Below, one piece after another: positions 25,515 through 31,850 of a DNA stretch of 64,000 bases (position 1 is the stretch's first letter; each line of letters opens with the position of its first letter). The notes beneath the pieces are model-generated. The model searched no databases and was not told where the DNA came from. It saw nothing but the letters and a program-made list of their open reading frames with translations. The DNA comes from Chloroflexota bacterium (GTDB taxonomy: Bacteria; Chloroflexota; UBA11872): NCBI GenBank assembly GCA_026708035.1, contig JAPOVQ010000006.1, positions 187,554 to 251,553 of the forward strand, in the 5' to 3' direction. The translations under genes were made by a program, and so were the position numbers.

Positions 25515-26537
25515 CTATGCGGTGTCGGCTTCGAGGCCGGCGAGCGCCTCGGCGGCCTTGCGCTGCTTGGCGGGGTCGGGGTCGCGGGCGACGATGCGAA
25601 GCAGGGTGGCTCGGGCCTCGACGTCGCCCTTGGCGGCCAGCTCCAAGGCCATGGCGTCGCGCTTCTCGTTGTATTGCGTGTCAAACTCCGCAACGTCGAG
25701 GTCCCAGTCGCGCCAGAAGTATTGGTGCTGCCCCGGCGCCCATCCCTCGTAAATCTGCTCCCAGGTGACATCGGGGTCATGCGGCTTGAGGCTGCCCGGC
25801 GCGATGGGATCGGCCAGCCGCTGAAACCGCAGGTCGACCGACAGTCGCAGCCGAGCGCCCGTGGCCGGCGCCCCGCGATGGACCGTCATGCTGTGAAAGA
25901 ACAGCACGTCGCCCTGCTGGAAGGTGCCGCCCACCCAGGCGCCGTGCAGCGGATCGGTGATTTCCGTGCCGCCGGCGCCCAGCGCCGGCACGAAGTCGAA
26001 CACGCCTTTTCGGTGGGTGCCGGCCGCGATCTGGAGTCCGCCCATTTCCGGAGACAGGTCGGTGAGCGGAATCCAGGCCGTGATGGTGTCGGCCGCGCCC
26101 TGCACGGGGACGAAGTCCTGGTGCGCCGGCGTGGTGTGGGCGGTGCGATCCGGGAACAGCACCCGGGCGATGACGCGCGGCTGCGGAATCACGGGAGCGT
26201 CGAGCACCGCTCCGATGAGGTCCAGCAGCTCGGCGCGGTGCTGCAGGGCGTGAAACGCGGGCAGCCTGTAGAGCTGGTTGTAGACCTTCTGGTAGGCCGG
26301 CTCGGGCTCGACGGCGAAGGCGCGCAGGTCGGCGACTTGGTCGTCCGGCGGGGAGTCGGCGGCGATCCAGTCGGCATCGCGCAGCACGGTGAGGAATTGG
26401 CGGCGCAGGTCCTAGACCACGGGCGGCGGCAGCAGGCCGCGCACGAAGAGGTAGCCGTCGTGGTCGAAGCGGCTGCGGGCCGCGTCGGCGTCGCCGGCGA
26501 TTTCAGTGGCGTCAAAGAAGGGCCGCACGTCGCTCAT
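25515..26537 (-). pseudogene. PhyH family gene interrupted by one in-frame TAG
   Basis: A near-twin of the downstream PhyH gene, readable from ATG 26537 to the stop at 25515 except for a TAG at 26414-26412. This falls at codon 42, where the intact copy has Glu42 (GAA) in PPVVEDLR. Everything after it is well preserved, including the AHQDF and TVHRGAP iron ligands, so the mutation is recent or an assembly error. Translation could restart at a GTG at 26387, giving 290 residues without the conserved N-terminal strand. The leader before the ATG is almost identical to that of the intact copy (CATCGTCAGACTCTCAGGAG on the plus strand). Confidence 0.85.
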
Positions 26538-26584: not shown

Positions 26585-27421
26585 TTAGGCCGGGAGAATA
26601 TCCAGGGGCGGCACGCTTTCCAGCAGGCCGGCGTCGGTCGCGCGGCGGTAGAGCTCTTCCAGACCGGCGGCGCCCGGCGTTCCCATGTCGCGGGTCAAGT
26701 CGTTGACGTACATCCGCGTGAACGCCGCCGTGAGGTCCGAGTCAACCTCGGGCGCAAAGCTGCGGGCGTAGGCCAGCGCGGGCTCGGGATGCGCCTCGGC
26801 CCAGGCGATGGATGCGCTCAGGGCAGCCGCCAACGCGTGCTGTTCGCCCTCACCGAGTCCTCGCCGCACGACATTGAGGCCCAGCGGCAGGGGCAGACCG
26901 GTCGAGGCGAACCAGCGCTCGCCGAGGTCGACCTGCTTGGTCAGCCCGTAGTCGGCGTAGTTGAGTTGGCCCTCGTGAATCACGATCCCCGCCGTCACCG
27001 AGCCGTCCCGCACGGCGGGCAGCACGTCGGCAAAGGCCATCTCGACCGGCTGGAACGGGGGAAGCAAAATCCGGCTGAGGAGGTAGGCAGTGGTGTGCTC
27101 GCCGGGGATCGCGACCGGCGCGGCGCGAACATCGGTATCGGCGCCTCGGGCTACGACGATGGGGCCATAGTTGAGACCCATGGACGAGCCACACGCCGTG
27201 ATGCGGTAGGTGTCCGCGACATAGGGATAGGCGCCGGCCGACACCTGGGACATATCGAGATCGCCGGCGAAGGCCCGTCGATTCAACGCCTGGATATCGG
27301 CGTGGACTTCGGCATAGCCGTCGGGTTCGACGCCCTCGATTGCGACCTTGCCGTGGGCCCGCGCGTAGAACATGAAGGCGTCGTCGGCGTCGGGGCTGTG
27401 GCCCACCGTCACCCGCGTCAT
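26585..27421 (-). CDS. mqnD: 1,4-dihydroxy-6-naphthoate synthase (MqnD)
   Basis: The 278-residue enzyme that turns cyclic dehypoxanthine futalosine into 1,4-dihydroxy-6-naphthoate, the last soluble step of the futalosine menaquinone route. It has a periplasmic-binding-protein-like fold. The opening GHSPDADDAFMFYA is the MqnD signature, and IHEGQLNYADYGL (residues about 149-161) is the substrate-binding block containing the catalytic His. It is the last gene of the mqn operon, thirteen bases after mqnC. Confidence 0.93.
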   Translation of the reverse strand: MTRVTVGHSPDADDAFMFYARAHGKVAIEGVEPDGYAEVHADIQALNRRAFAGDLDMSQVSAGAYPYVADTYRITACGSSMGLNYGPIVVARGADTDVRAAPVAIPGEHTTAYLLSRILLPPFQPVEMAFADVLPAVRDGSVTAGIVIHEGQLNYADYGLTKQVDLGERWFASTGLPLPLGLNVVRRGLGEGEQHALAAALSASIAWAEAHPEPALAYARSFAPEVDSDLTAAFTRMYVNDLTRDMGTPGAAGLEELYRRATDAGLLESVPPLDILPA

Positions 27422-27434
27422 GACCGGCTGCCGG

Positions 27435-28538
27435 TCATGCGCCGTTGGGCGTCTCGTCGAAGGTGCGCAGGATCTCGTAGAAGCTGTTGCGCTGGGCCGG
27501 GACGAATCCGGCTTCGCGGATCATGGTTTGGGTCTCGGCAATGCTGGTGCGGGCGTAGTGCCCGGCTTCTTGCATCACGTTTTCCTCGAACAATGTGCCG
27601 CCGAAGTCGTCCGCCCCGAAGTGGAGCGCCACCTGCCCGACCTTCTTGCCCTCGCTGAACCACGACGCGTCCACATGGTCCACGTTGTCCAGAAACAGCC
27701 GTGACGCGGCCAGGATGCGCAGGTAGCGATTGGCCGACGCCCGCTTGCCCTTGAGTTTGCGTCCCAGCGGCGTCCCGCCGGGGGCGAAGCTCCAGGGAAT
27801 GAAGGCCGTGAACCCATCCGTCTCGTCCTGCAGGTCCCGCACGCGCGAGAGGTGCTCCACCAGGTCATCGTCGGTTTCCACATGCCCATACATCATCGTG
27901 GCGGTGCTGCGCACACCGGCGAGGTGCGCGGCGCGATGCACCGCGATCCACTCGTCGGCGTCCATCTTGAGCGGGCTGATGACGTCGCGGACGCGGTTGG
28001 TGAGCACCTCCGCGCCACCGCCCGGAAACGTGCGCTGGCCGGCCGCGAATAGCGCGGCCATGACCTCGTCGTAGCTCAGTCCCGAGACCATGGCCATCTC
28101 GTAGACCTCGGGCGCCGACCAGAAGTGGGGCGTGAGGCCGGGAAACCGCTCCCGCGTGGCGCGCACCATGTCCGTGTAGTAGTCGAACGGAAGCTCGGGG
28201 TTCAGGCCGCCCTGCATGAGCACGGTCGTGCAACCCATCTCGACCGCCGCCGCCATGCGCTCCAGCATCTCGTCGACGGTGTGCGTGTAGGCATCGGGCG
28301 CGGTGCTGGTGTGCGGTCGGTAGAAGGCGCAAAACGAGCAGTAGGCGTCGCAGAGGTTGGTGTAGTTGAGATTGGTGTCGACCACGTAGGTGACGACGGA
28401 GTCGGGATGACGCTCGAACCTGACCTCGTTGGCCAGCGCCCCCAGGTCCATGAGCGGCGCGTCGCCGAGCAGATAGGACGCGTCGGCGGTCGAGAGCCGT
28501 TGGCCCTCCCGCACCTTGGCTTCAATCGTGCGAATCAT
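27435..28538 (-). CDS. mqnC: Cyclic dehypoxanthine futalosine synthase (MqnC), radical SAM
   Basis: A 367-residue radical SAM enzyme that cyclises dehypoxanthine futalosine. The [4Fe-4S] cysteines are Cys63, Cys67 and Cys70 (CxxxCxxC). The FYRP sequence right after the cluster is characteristic of MqnC and separates it from MqnE, which has FDFAAK there. MQGGLNPELP and the closing QRNSFYEIL agree. Its ATG overlaps the mqnA stop by four bases, showing translational coupling. Confidence 0.95.
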   Translation of the reverse strand: MIRTIEAKVREGQRLSTADASYLLGDAPLMDLGALANEVRFERHPDSVVTYVVDTNLNYTNLCDAYCSFCAFYRPHTSTAPDAYTHTVDEMLERMAAAVEMGCTTVLMQGGLNPELPFDYYTDMVRATRERFPGLTPHFWSAPEVYEMAMVSGLSYDEVMAALFAAGQRTFPGGGAEVLTNRVRDVISPLKMDADEWIAVHRAAHLAGVRSTATMMYGHVETDDDLVEHLSRVRDLQDETDGFTAFIPWSFAPGGTPLGRKLKGKRASANRYLRILAASRLFLDNVDHVDASWFSEGKKVGQVALHFGADDFGGTLFEENVMQEAGHYARTSIAETQTMIREAGFVPAQRNSFYEILRTFDETPNGA

Positions 28539-29296
28539 GCGGCATCGTGCTGGACGCTCACCTGGGCATCGAGCTCCCGAAAGCGGTCGACGGCCGACCA
28601 GGCGCGCGGTCCAAAGCGGTACTCAAACGTCTGGAGGTAGCGGCGAACCGCCGCCGCGTCGAGCCCGCAGTCGGGGCGCCGCGCGGCCAGCGCCCCCAGA
28701 TCTTCAAGGTTGATGGTGAGCTGGCGATCCAGGTAGTCCACCGCCGCCGCGGCGTTCGCGGGCGCCACGCCTGCACGCTGCATCCAGGCGGCAAATACGA
28801 AGGGCAAACCGGTCCATTCGTGCCATGCCGCCGCCAGGTCGGTGACGTGGGGATAGCGGGGATCATGCGGCGATTGCAGCAGCGCGCGGTCGCCGATGAG
28901 CAAGACGGCGTCGGCCGCGACATCCAACGGCACCAGCCGGTAGCCGCCAACGGCGTAGTAGCGCTGCAACAGCACGCTCAGCAGCCGGGCTGACGTGGCC
29001 GTGTCGTCGATGACGCCAATCGGCCGGCCGCCCAAGTCGGCTGGCGGCACTTGGGAGAAGAGGAGCACGGACTTGGCGTCGGCCTGGGTGGCGATGCCCA
29101 TGTCGCCCACCGGCACGAACAGGTCGGGATGGTCGAACGAGGCGACGATCGGCAGCGGGGCCACGTCGACCTGACCGCCGCGCACCAGATCGATCATGCC
29201 CCGGGGCGTCGCCGTGCGCGCCTCGACGCGCACCGGATCATCGCCGAAGAACGGCTCGGTGTTCAGATAGGGAATGCGCCCGAGGCTAGGCAGCAT
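28535..29296 (-). CDS. mqnA: Chorismate dehydratase (MqnA)
   Basis: A 253-residue MqnA, which removes water from chorismate to give 3-enolpyruvylbenzoate, committing chorismate to menaquinone. GRIPYLNTEPFF at the N-terminus, the VDVAPLPI segment (residues 43-50) and DDTATSARLL (96-105) are the family marks. It shares the periplasmic-binding-protein fold of MqnD. The start lies eleven bases inside the end of mqnE and the stop overlaps mqnC. Confidence 0.94.
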   Translation of the reverse strand: MLPSLGRIPYLNTEPFFGDDPVRVEARTATPRGMIDLVRGGQVDVAPLPIVASFDHPDLFVPVGDMGIATQADAKSVLLFSQVPPADLGGRPIGVIDDTATSARLLSVLLQRYYAVGGYRLVPLDVAADAVLLIGDRALLQSPHDPRYPHVTDLAAAWHEWTGLPFVFAAWMQRAGVAPANAAAAVDYLDRQLTINLEDLGALAARRPDCGLDAAAVRRYLQTFEYRFGPRAWSAVDRFRELDAQVSVQHDAA

Positions 29297-30392
29297 GGGT
29301 GCGCATGACGGTGTAGGTGGCGTTGCGCTCCACCGGCACCTTGCCGGCCGAGCGAATGAGCCCTACCAGCCGCGTGCGGGCGACGCCGACCGGGCTGTCG
29401 GCCAGCGCCGCGTGCGCGATGCGCTCGGTGCCGATGGTGCCGTCCAGGTCGTCGGCGCCGAAGTTTAGGCCGATCGAGGCGGTTTCTTCGCCCGTCATCA
29501 CCCAGTAGGCCTTGATATGCGGGAAGTTGTCGAGCATCAGCCGGGCGGTGGCGATCATGCGCAGATCGTCGATGGCGCTGGCGTGACGTGGCACGAGATT
29601 CGTGGTGCCGAGCTGATACTCGAGGGGGATGAAACACAGAAACCCACCGGTCACGTCCTGAGCTTCCCGCAGGCGGATGAAGTGGTGGATGCGCTCCTCG
29701 TGCGTCTCGATGTGGCCGTAGAGCATCGTGGCGTTGGAGTGCAGGCCCATGCGGTGGGCCAGGTGGTGGATCTCGATCCAGCGGTCGGCCCCCGCCTTGC
29801 CGCGGAATAGCTCGCGGCGCACCCGCTCGGAAAATACCTCCGCCCCGCCGCCGGGCATCGAGCTGACGCCCGCGGCAATCATGCGCTCGAGCACCTCGGC
29901 GTCCGACAGCTTGAACCGTTTGTGAAAGTAGTCGACCTCGGCGGCCGTGAACGCCTTGATCTGGACGGTGGGCCGCTCGTCCTTGATCGCGCGCAGCAGG
30001 TCCTCGTACCACGCGAACGGGATGTCGGGATGGTGGCCGCCGACGATATGCACCTCGTGCACGTCCGGCGGAATCTGGCCCAGGATCTCCGAGATCGAGT
30101 ACTCGTAGGCGTGGTCGTCGCCGCGCTTGGCGGCGAAGTCGCAGAACTTGCACGACAGCACGCAGATATTCGTCGGATTGATGTGGACGTTGAGCGTGAA
30201 GTACACGCGATCGTCGGAGCGCCGGCGGGCCGCCCAATCGGCCATTCGTCCCAGGCCGACGATGTCCGGCGTCTGGAGGCAGCGGAGCCCGTCGGCCGCG
30301 CTGAGGCGACGTCCTTCGCGGACGCTGTCCCAGATGGGCTCCAGCGCGGCGTCGCGGAAGCGCATGTCGGGAGCGGTGACCGCCTCAGGCAT
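29286..30392 (-). CDS. mqnE: Aminofutalosine synthase (MqnE), radical SAM
   Basis: A 368-residue radical SAM enzyme that joins 3-enolpyruvylbenzoate to the adenosyl radical of SAM to give aminofutalosine. The cluster cysteines are Cys77, Cys81 and Cys84 (CVLSCKFC), followed by DFAAKRGD, typical of MqnE. HIVGGHHPDIPF and the closing ERNATYTVMR agree. Because MqnE makes aminofutalosine, the pathway needs a nucleosidase of the MTAN type and no MqnB is seen here. ATG at 30392 has AGGA nine bases upstream and overlaps the tetR stop by eight bases. Confidence 0.95.
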   Translation of the reverse strand: MPEAVTAPDMRFRDAALEPIWDSVREGRRLSAADGLRCLQTPDIVGLGRMADWAARRRSDDRVYFTLNVHINPTNICVLSCKFCDFAAKRGDDHAYEYSISEILGQIPPDVHEVHIVGGHHPDIPFAWYEDLLRAIKDERPTVQIKAFTAAEVDYFHKRFKLSDAEVLERMIAAGVSSMPGGGAEVFSERVRRELFRGKAGADRWIEIHHLAHRMGLHSNATMLYGHIETHEERIHHFIRLREAQDVTGGFLCFIPLEYQLGTTNLVPRHASAIDDLRMIATARLMLDNFPHIKAYWVMTGEETASIGLNFGADDLDGTIGTERIAHAALADSPVGVARTRLVGLIRSAGKVPVERNATYTVMRTHAA

Positions 30393-31035
30393 GGGCCGGA
30401 GTCCTGTCGGCCGGGAGCTGGTTGATGTCGATGCCCACGCTCTGCAGCAGCAAGTGCCGCAGCGCCGGATAGGTCATGTGCAGCGGCCCATGGTCGGGAT
30501 CGTGCAGCCAGCGGACGACGATTTCGCTGATGGCTCCGAACCAGGCGGTGGCGATGAGATCGGTGTCGCAGGGTTCGAGGGTGCCCTCGGCGACAGCGGC
30601 ATCCAGGTGCCGGCGAATCAAGGCGGCGAACTGCTGCCGGACGAAGAGCAGATCGTCGCTGAAGGCGCGGCCGGCGCCCGCGACCTCGACCAGCGTGACG
30701 CGCGCCAGCGTGCGGTGCTTGGTGAAAATGTCGATGACCGATAGCAGGGCGGCGTCGAGCCGGTGGATGGCGGTGGGCTCGTCGACAAGCTCCCGATCCA
30801 CGCGCTCGACCAGATAGGACGCCAGCTCCCGGACCAACGCGCGGAAGATGGCCTCTTTACTGGGGAAATGAAAATAGGCCGTGCCCTTGGAACGTCCGGC
30901 GCGGGTAACGATTTCGTCAACCGCGGCGCGGTGATAGCCCTTTTCGCCAAAGACGTTGAGGGCGGATTCGAGCAGCGCGCGCCGCGTGGCGTCTCGCTTG
31001 GTTCCGCGACGGGCCCCAGGCAGGCGAAGTTGCAA
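30385..31035 (-). CDS. TetR/AcrR-family transcriptional regulator heading the mqn operon
   Basis: A 216-residue TetR-type repressor if started at the TTG at 31035. The helix-turn-helix is residues about 38-58 (VDEIVTRAGRSKGTAYFHFPSK), preceded by ALLESALNVFGEKG, both canonical. The C-terminal ligand domain ends LLLQSVGIDINQLPADR. The open frame runs on to 31383, but that part lies antisense-frame over the upstream gene, and no ATG or GTG occurs between it and the HTH. The stop overlaps the mqnE start, so it is the first gene of tetR-mqnEACD. A perfect inverted repeat stands 14 bases before the TTG, suggesting autoregulation. Confidence 0.85.
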   Translation of the reverse strand: MQLRLPGARRGTKRDATRRALLESALNVFGEKGYHRAAVDEIVTRAGRSKGTAYFHFPSKEAIFRALVRELASYLVERVDRELVDEPTAIHRLDAALLSVIDIFTKHRTLARVTLVEVAGAGRAFSDDLLFVRQQFAALIRRHLDAAVAEGTLEPCDTDLIATAWFGAISEIVVRWLHDPDHGPLHMTYPALRHLLLQSVGIDINQLPADRTPAHA

Positions 31036-31048
31036 CGGCCGATCACCA

Positions 31049-31070
31049 AAACTGACTGCTGAGTCAGTTT
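31049..31070. promoter_or_regulatory. Perfect inverted repeat AAACTGACT-GCTG-AGTCAGTTT, probable TetR operator
   Basis: Nine-base perfect arms around a four-base spacer, directly upstream of the tetR gene in the 74-base gap after the preceding gene. Size, symmetry and place are those of a TetR-family operator. It would let the TetR protein control its own gene and the four mqn genes behind it. It could instead be a terminator stem for the upstream gene, although no T-run follows on the reverse strand. Confidence 0.65.
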
Positions 31071-31109
31071 GTCCCAGGTTGGATTCCGGCGTCAACTGAC
31101 GGGCTTGGC

Positions 31110-31850
31110 CTAGACCCGGATGCGGGCGAAGTTCATCCGCAACGGTGCGAGGGCATCTCGGTTGAGAATCGCGGTGGCGGGCATTGGGTCGCGCTTCTGA
31201 ACCGGCATGGCCCACGCGCCGAATCGATCTCCCAGCAGGGTGGCGCGTGTGGTGACCCACATGCGCCCGCCGTCGAACGGCGACATGAGCATGGTGCCGA
31301 TGGCTTGCTCGCCGCCGGACAGCGCGGCGGCGAAAACCAACCCCACCTGCGCGCCGGACACCGCGCCAAACGCGGAGTCCCACAGCTGGGCCATGAACTG
31401 GCGCTCGATCATGCTGGCAGCGGCGCGGCGTGGACCGCTCACGTTCACGCCCTGCGCCCGAATGCTGGCCTCGGCGGAGGCGATGAGGGTGTCACGCGAC
31501 TTGAAGAACTGGTCGCGCGCCGCTTCGACGCGGGTGCGGTAGGCCTCGGTGGGATCGAAGGGCAGCAATACCACCAGGGTGGCCGGCACGTGCCGCGGAT
31601 CGACGTCGAGCGCCACACGCACCTGATACGGCGGCGAGGGCTGGGTGCGAGCTTCGGCGTCCTTCTGGGGTTCGGTGGTCGCCGGTGGAGCATCGGCCGC
31701 CTGCGCCTCGGCAGCCGGAGGCGACTCGGACTCCGCGGGGGCCGGCGGCTCCGCGGCGGGCGGAGGCTCCGGCGGCGGAGAGGGCGCGGCCGGCAGCGGC
31801 TGGCCGCTGGGACCAAGGAGCACGGGTCGCTTGTTCCTCGACTGGGCCAC
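31110..31850 (-). CDS. Protein of unknown function with Pro/Ala/Glu-rich N-terminus
   Basis: A 246-residue protein from a GTG start. Residues about 18-70 are a low-complexity Pro/Ala/Glu linker (PPPEPPPAAEPPAPAE), and residues about 75-246 are a folded-looking domain with LVVLLPFDPTEAYR, an internal helix region and LLGDRFGAWAMP. There is no signal peptide or membrane helix. I do not recognise a family. The location just before the tetR-mqn operon does not by itself imply a role. The start is uncertain since no ribosome site is visible. Confidence 0.65.
   Translation of the reverse strand: MAQSRNKRPVLLGPSGQPLPAAPSPPPEPPPAAEPPAPAESESPPAAEAQAADAPPATTEPQKDAEARTQPSPPYQVRVALDVDPRHVPATLVVLLPFDPTEAYRTRVEAARDQFFKSRDTLIASAEASIRAQGVNVSGPRRAAASMIERQFMAQLWDSAFGAVSGAQVGLVFAAALSGGEQAIGTMLMSPFDGGRMWVTTRATLLGDRFGAWAMPVQKRDPMPATAILNRDALAPLRMNFARIRV

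Follow-up and report, generated by a model that had tools for sequence, protein, structure and literature searches.

The tetR-mqn locus and its putative operator

The window (the whole stretch of 64,000 nucleotides that was analyzed) encodes on its minus strand a TetR family regulator followed, in this order, by mqnE, mqnA, mqnC and mqnD, and belongs to a Chloroflexota MAG of 3.46 Mb (36 contigs, 96% complete). The tetR gene (30385-31035) encodes a protein of 216 aa with the domains TetR_N and TetR_C_24. Its TTG start is backed by the motif M-x-L-x-L-P-G, which is kept from that codon onward in the family; relatives use ATG, GTG or TTG. The complete futalosine gene set is present at the locus. 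Two of its products exceed the equivalog cut-offs, namely the aminofutalosine synthase MqnE (29286-30392; TIGR03700, 444.6 bits, cut-off 434.55) and the cyclic dehypoxanthinyl futalosine synthase MqnC (27435-28538; TIGR03699, 448.3 bits, cut-off 428.1). The other two (28535-29296 and 26585-27421) were assigned to their family by VitK2_biosynth and, based on gene order and a sequence motif, are taken to be the chorismate dehydratase MqnA and the 1,4-dihydroxy-6-naphthoate synthase MqnD, respectively. The genes are tightly packed, with overlaps of 8 bp between tetR and mqnE (30385-30392), 11 bp between mqnE and mqnA (29286-29296) and 4 bp between mqnA and mqnC (28535-28538), and a gap of 13 bp before mqnD (27422-27434). 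This gene set, its order on one strand and the junctions had been proposed in an initial annotation; Pfam and NCBIfam profiles upheld the names and the coordinates agree.

Regarding the flanking genes, a PhyH-type dioxygenase is encoded downstream of mqnD on the same strand (25515-26387), and a second copy, 83% identical, adjoins it in the genome's locus (L096). A gene for a proline-rich protein (31110-31850), for which no match was obtained in Pfam or NCBIfam, lies upstream of tetR throughout the family.

Upstream of tetR, a palindrome of 22 bp with perfect 9-bp arms and a 4-bp centre occupies positions 31049-31070 (AAACTGACTCAGCAGTCAGTTT on the minus strand, AAACTGACTGCTGAGTCAGTTT on the plus strand) and represents a putative operator. 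The inverted repeat was seen as initially annotated; its distance to the TTG start, first given as 14 bases, measures 13 bp. At up to three mismatches the palindrome has one match within the whole window and none in 100 dinucleotide shuffles. In the genome as a whole the site is single at up to two mismatches, the sites with zero or one mismatch being confined to the tetR-mqn operon, and the number of sites with three mismatches equals the control pattern, so that no signal of a wider regulon was detected in this genome. One recurring site with three mismatches (G000:C21) was discarded as a target, as it lies inside a long coding sequence resembling a tRNA synthetase.

The surroundings of the palindrome evidence the layout expected for a repressor. 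A putative -35 element (TTGACG, 31090-31095, minus strand) occupies a position at which TTGAC is kept in the mqn loci, 24-27 bp upstream of the operator in 20 of 21 of them, and in these loci a -10 hexamer (TACAAA or TAAAAA) overlaps the first bases of the operator. This spacing, together with the overlap, suggests the geometry of a repressor site and the layout of an autorepressor. In the window the corresponding putative -10 element (GACAAA, 31068-31073, minus strand) is weak, and it is poor in the window's own genus; a generic scan of the locus called no promoter or terminator. Both observations count against the autorepressor view.

Conservation in the order and menaquinone pathway content

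Adjacency of tetR and mqnE in relatives and conservation of the palindrome were examined in the order to which the genome belongs. mqnE is found directly downstream of tetR in 22/22 TetR-bearing loci (18 in the family and 4 in a sister family), and a palindrome precedes tetR in every one of them, those of L018 and L024 having diverged further. Neither of the two genomic grounds for refutation named at the outset, lack of the link or of the palindrome in relatives, applies. The operator scored above all shuffles and in-locus controls in 21/21 mqn loci. In most loci of the order it reads AAACCGACYGACCAGTCGGTTT or close to it, and in the window's genus AAACTGACY...RGTCAGTTT; both arms change together between genera and still match each other. 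Two genomes of the window's genus carry a mixed operator that combines a CTGAC arm with a GTCGG arm. In G019, which has mqnE and lacks tetR, no operator was found near mqnE, nor was one found at the mqnE of three more distant genomes of the same class. The 8-bp overlap between tetR and mqnE is shared by 15 of 17 family loci and was not seen in the sister family; thus, the translational coupling suggested in the initial annotation would be a common arrangement in the family but not an essential one. The named relatives are all Chloroflexota MAGs, and for some of them the isolate name seems to suggest a sponge or marine source.

With respect to the pathway, the best menD score in the window's genome is 63.6 bits (cut-off 244.2), which indicates that the classical route is absent, and no genome of the order except G017 had a menD above the cut-off. 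The order therefore apparently relies on the futalosine route only. The menD of G017 exceeds the family cut-off in a futalosine-type family and is located on a separate contig of its own (G017:C34:120-1451), and may possibly be a contamination. In the window's genome the late genes, ubiD and UbiA, lie side by side on another contig; no operator was found upstream of them.

The same TetR and operator before classical men genes

When 84,980 genomes were scanned with the TetR alignment, 79 loci were obtained, of which 17 from the family and 4 from the sister family contain mqn genes. In most of the loci without mqn genes, menF is found next to tetR, and behind it come menD and some of menH, menB, menE and menA. 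Gene content was tallied over 86 loci plus the window, representatives being assigned by NCBIfam and the remaining loci by tblastn against the representatives. This resulted in 48 loci with men genes, 22 with mqn genes (including the window), 3 with late genes, 6 with an NMT1-like ABC transporter, 2 with a branched-chain-type ABC transporter and 6 that are other or cut off. The men representatives scored above the NCBIfam cut-offs (given in parentheses): 431 bits for menD (244), 196 for menA (102), 266 for menH (209), 410 for menE (330) and 309 for isochorismate synthase (225), while menB reached 406 bits against PRK07396 (380). The late genes are menA in L130 and an SCO4490-type decarboxylase (ubiD) in L126 and, as assigned by similarity, in L115.

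With an operator weight matrix trained on mqn sites only, sites that outscored all shuffles and all controls from within the locus were found at 44 of 47 men tetRs and at all 3 late-gene loci. It also detected a site at both branched-chain loci and at one of the six NMT1 loci. The search for the motif before other genes, proposed at the outset, gave essentially one site in the window's own genome and, in other Chloroflexota, men operons preceded by the motif. The idea of a TetR dedicated to this operon holds as far as gene linkage and conservation of the palindrome are concerned, but the regulator is not specific to the futalosine pathway, as it heads men operons too. It appears, from the gene and site content of these loci, that one regulator serves two different and enzymatically unrelated pathways to menaquinone (vitamin K2).

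Some members of the subfamily stand in other contexts. In L086-L089, L091 and L092, which belong to family f3 of the same class, the TetR heads an operon for the NMT1-like ABC transporter, mostly without the operator, and in L146 and L149, one of them from an Acetothermia MAG, the TetR together with a similar operator heads an operon for the branched-chain-type transporter. These 8 loci indicate that the subfamily, most of whose members occur in Chloroflexota, can also head genes of other kinds and does not act in menaquinone regulation exclusively. In L157 and L160, one of which is recorded under the name Thermoflexus hugenholtzii, the TetR precedes a gene resembling a site-2 protease, and no operator was found at these two loci. 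A tetR-menF-menD locus of the Chloroflexota kind also occurs on contigs labelled Deltaproteobacteria (L125 and L133), a finding that may reflect either transfer or misbinning.

In the phylogeny, the TetRs of mqn loci group together (SH-aLRT 93-94), and one set of men TetRs is placed next to them (support 80-90). The tree favours an origin of the mqn TetRs within the men TetRs but does not establish it, as a single clade of all non-mqn rows (men, late, branched-chain and other) was not rejected (AU p = 0.33). It looks as if this menaquinone regulator persists even where the enzymes encoded below it are different.

Proposed regulation and comparison with known TetR regulators

Based on the available evidence, the TetR is very probably an autorepressor of the menaquinone operon, belonging to a subfamily that would serve menaquinone synthesis whichever pathway is used. 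What points in this direction is the set of parts at the locus, their conservation, a nearly unique site per genome, the fact that site and TetR occur together, and the occurrence of the pair before both pathways. In the proposed mechanism, a TetR dimer would bind the 22-bp palindrome, which overlaps the putative -10 element and the start of the operon promoter, and would thereby shut off tetR-mqnE-A-C-D until a ligand releases it; in other lineages the same subfamily would act at the head of the classical menF-D-... operons. The ABC-transporter loci (8, two with the operator, L146 and L149) argue against a role restricted to menaquinone, and the late genes ubiD/UbiA of the window's genome, which carry no operator, argue against the autorepressor view.

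Both routes to menaquinone start from chorismate and end with a common prenylation and methylation. The residues F104, R108, F125, F136, W165 and W176 of the ligand domain are kept in the mqn and men types, suggesting a ligand that is probably lipophilic and shared by the two routes. As the routes have these first and last steps in common, a futalosine intermediate is less likely than a common ligand or a general lipid signal such as acyl-CoA, as with MftR. Among single candidates, a long-chain acyl-CoA is put forward tentatively, and it is a possible ligand also for an autorepressor dedicated to menaquinone; menaquinone or another quinone is a more doubtful candidate, and chorismate is unlikely, as is any other compound. 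It can further be hypothesized that the pair was kept through an exchange of the non-homologous men and mqn pathways and that the TetR is a direct transcriptional sensor of menaquinone or its state, although this is rather unlikely.

The alternatives are of low probability. The first sees in the protein a FadR-type acyl-CoA regulator whose regulon has come to include the menaquinone genes, tying quinone supply to beta-oxidation. The structure model (pLDDT 89) has an all-helical TetR fold of nine helices with a ligand domain and matches many TetR proteins with Z about 20, and the nearest folds are Bacillus FadR (Z 20.7-20.9), Rv0078 and EthR2; FadR (TetR type, Bacillus subtilis/halodurans) is also the best profile match among solved structures. 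The helix-turn-helix domain TetR_N scores 58.4 bits (Pfam cut-off 24). Nevertheless, the protein reaches only 74.4 bits against NF053878 (cut-off 200), and the key conformational residue R109 of FadR is replaced by Ala (A119; motif from PMC13176608), so that the window's TetR is not FadR itself; this replacement would also speak against a FadR-like acyl-CoA switch. FadR itself controls genes of fatty-acid degradation. The operator occurs essentially once per genome and no sign of a fatty-acid regulon was seen, which makes this explanation improbable.

That the TetR responds to a futalosine-specific compound (aminofutalosine, dehypoxanthine futalosine or 1,4-dihydroxy-6-naphthoate) would fit the strict linkage of tetR and mqn genes inside the order, but is very improbable given that in 48 loci the subfamily heads genes of the men pathway, which does not produce these compounds, with the operator present in nearly all of them, and that the conserved ligand-domain residues are identical in both types. 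Least probable of all are the readings in which the TetR acts as an activator or is a passenger gene without relation to the operon, and the palindrome serves something else, because, in spite of the activator FasR being the third-best NCBIfam match (far below its cut-off), the palindrome overlaps the -10 region, tracks the TetR across pathways and lineages and is missing where the TetR is missing.

Autorepression of the menaquinone operon by this TetR thus remains the preferred reading. Searches of titles and abstracts in an open-access library retrieved no paper on a TetR protein that regulates menaquinone synthesis or the futalosine genes, and little was found on the transcriptional adjustment of bacterial menaquinone supply. 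A factor common to the classical and futalosine routes would point to a signal common to both, which a comparison of mqn-type and men-type proteins makes directly testable. The system would also illustrate how a regulatory element can persist above differing sets of target enzymes, and the operator motif can be used for annotating menaquinone genes across Chloroflexota.

Among known systems, MftR is a TetR-type regulator of Mycobacterium that exerts acyl-CoA control, through a palindromic operator, over the biosynthesis operon of the redox cofactor mycofactocin (PMC8728441), and is as such a precedent for the FadR-kind explanation as well. It differs in cofactor and phylum, and the window's TetR, with 33 bits against TIGR03968 (cut-off 224.9), is not MftR. 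A further comparison is with a pair from Thermus thermophilus, SbtR (TTHA0167) and PfmR (TTHB023), the latter with a structure (3vpr) among the fold matches of the model. Their published sites are of the consensus TGACYrnnyRGTCA and CTGACCGATCGGTCAG type, and the reported targets include fatty-acid genes, with no menaquinone operon seen among them (PMC7022988). The TGAC/GTCA core is common to these sites and the operator of the window, suggesting that the mode in which this TetR would read DNA is probably of a known kind.
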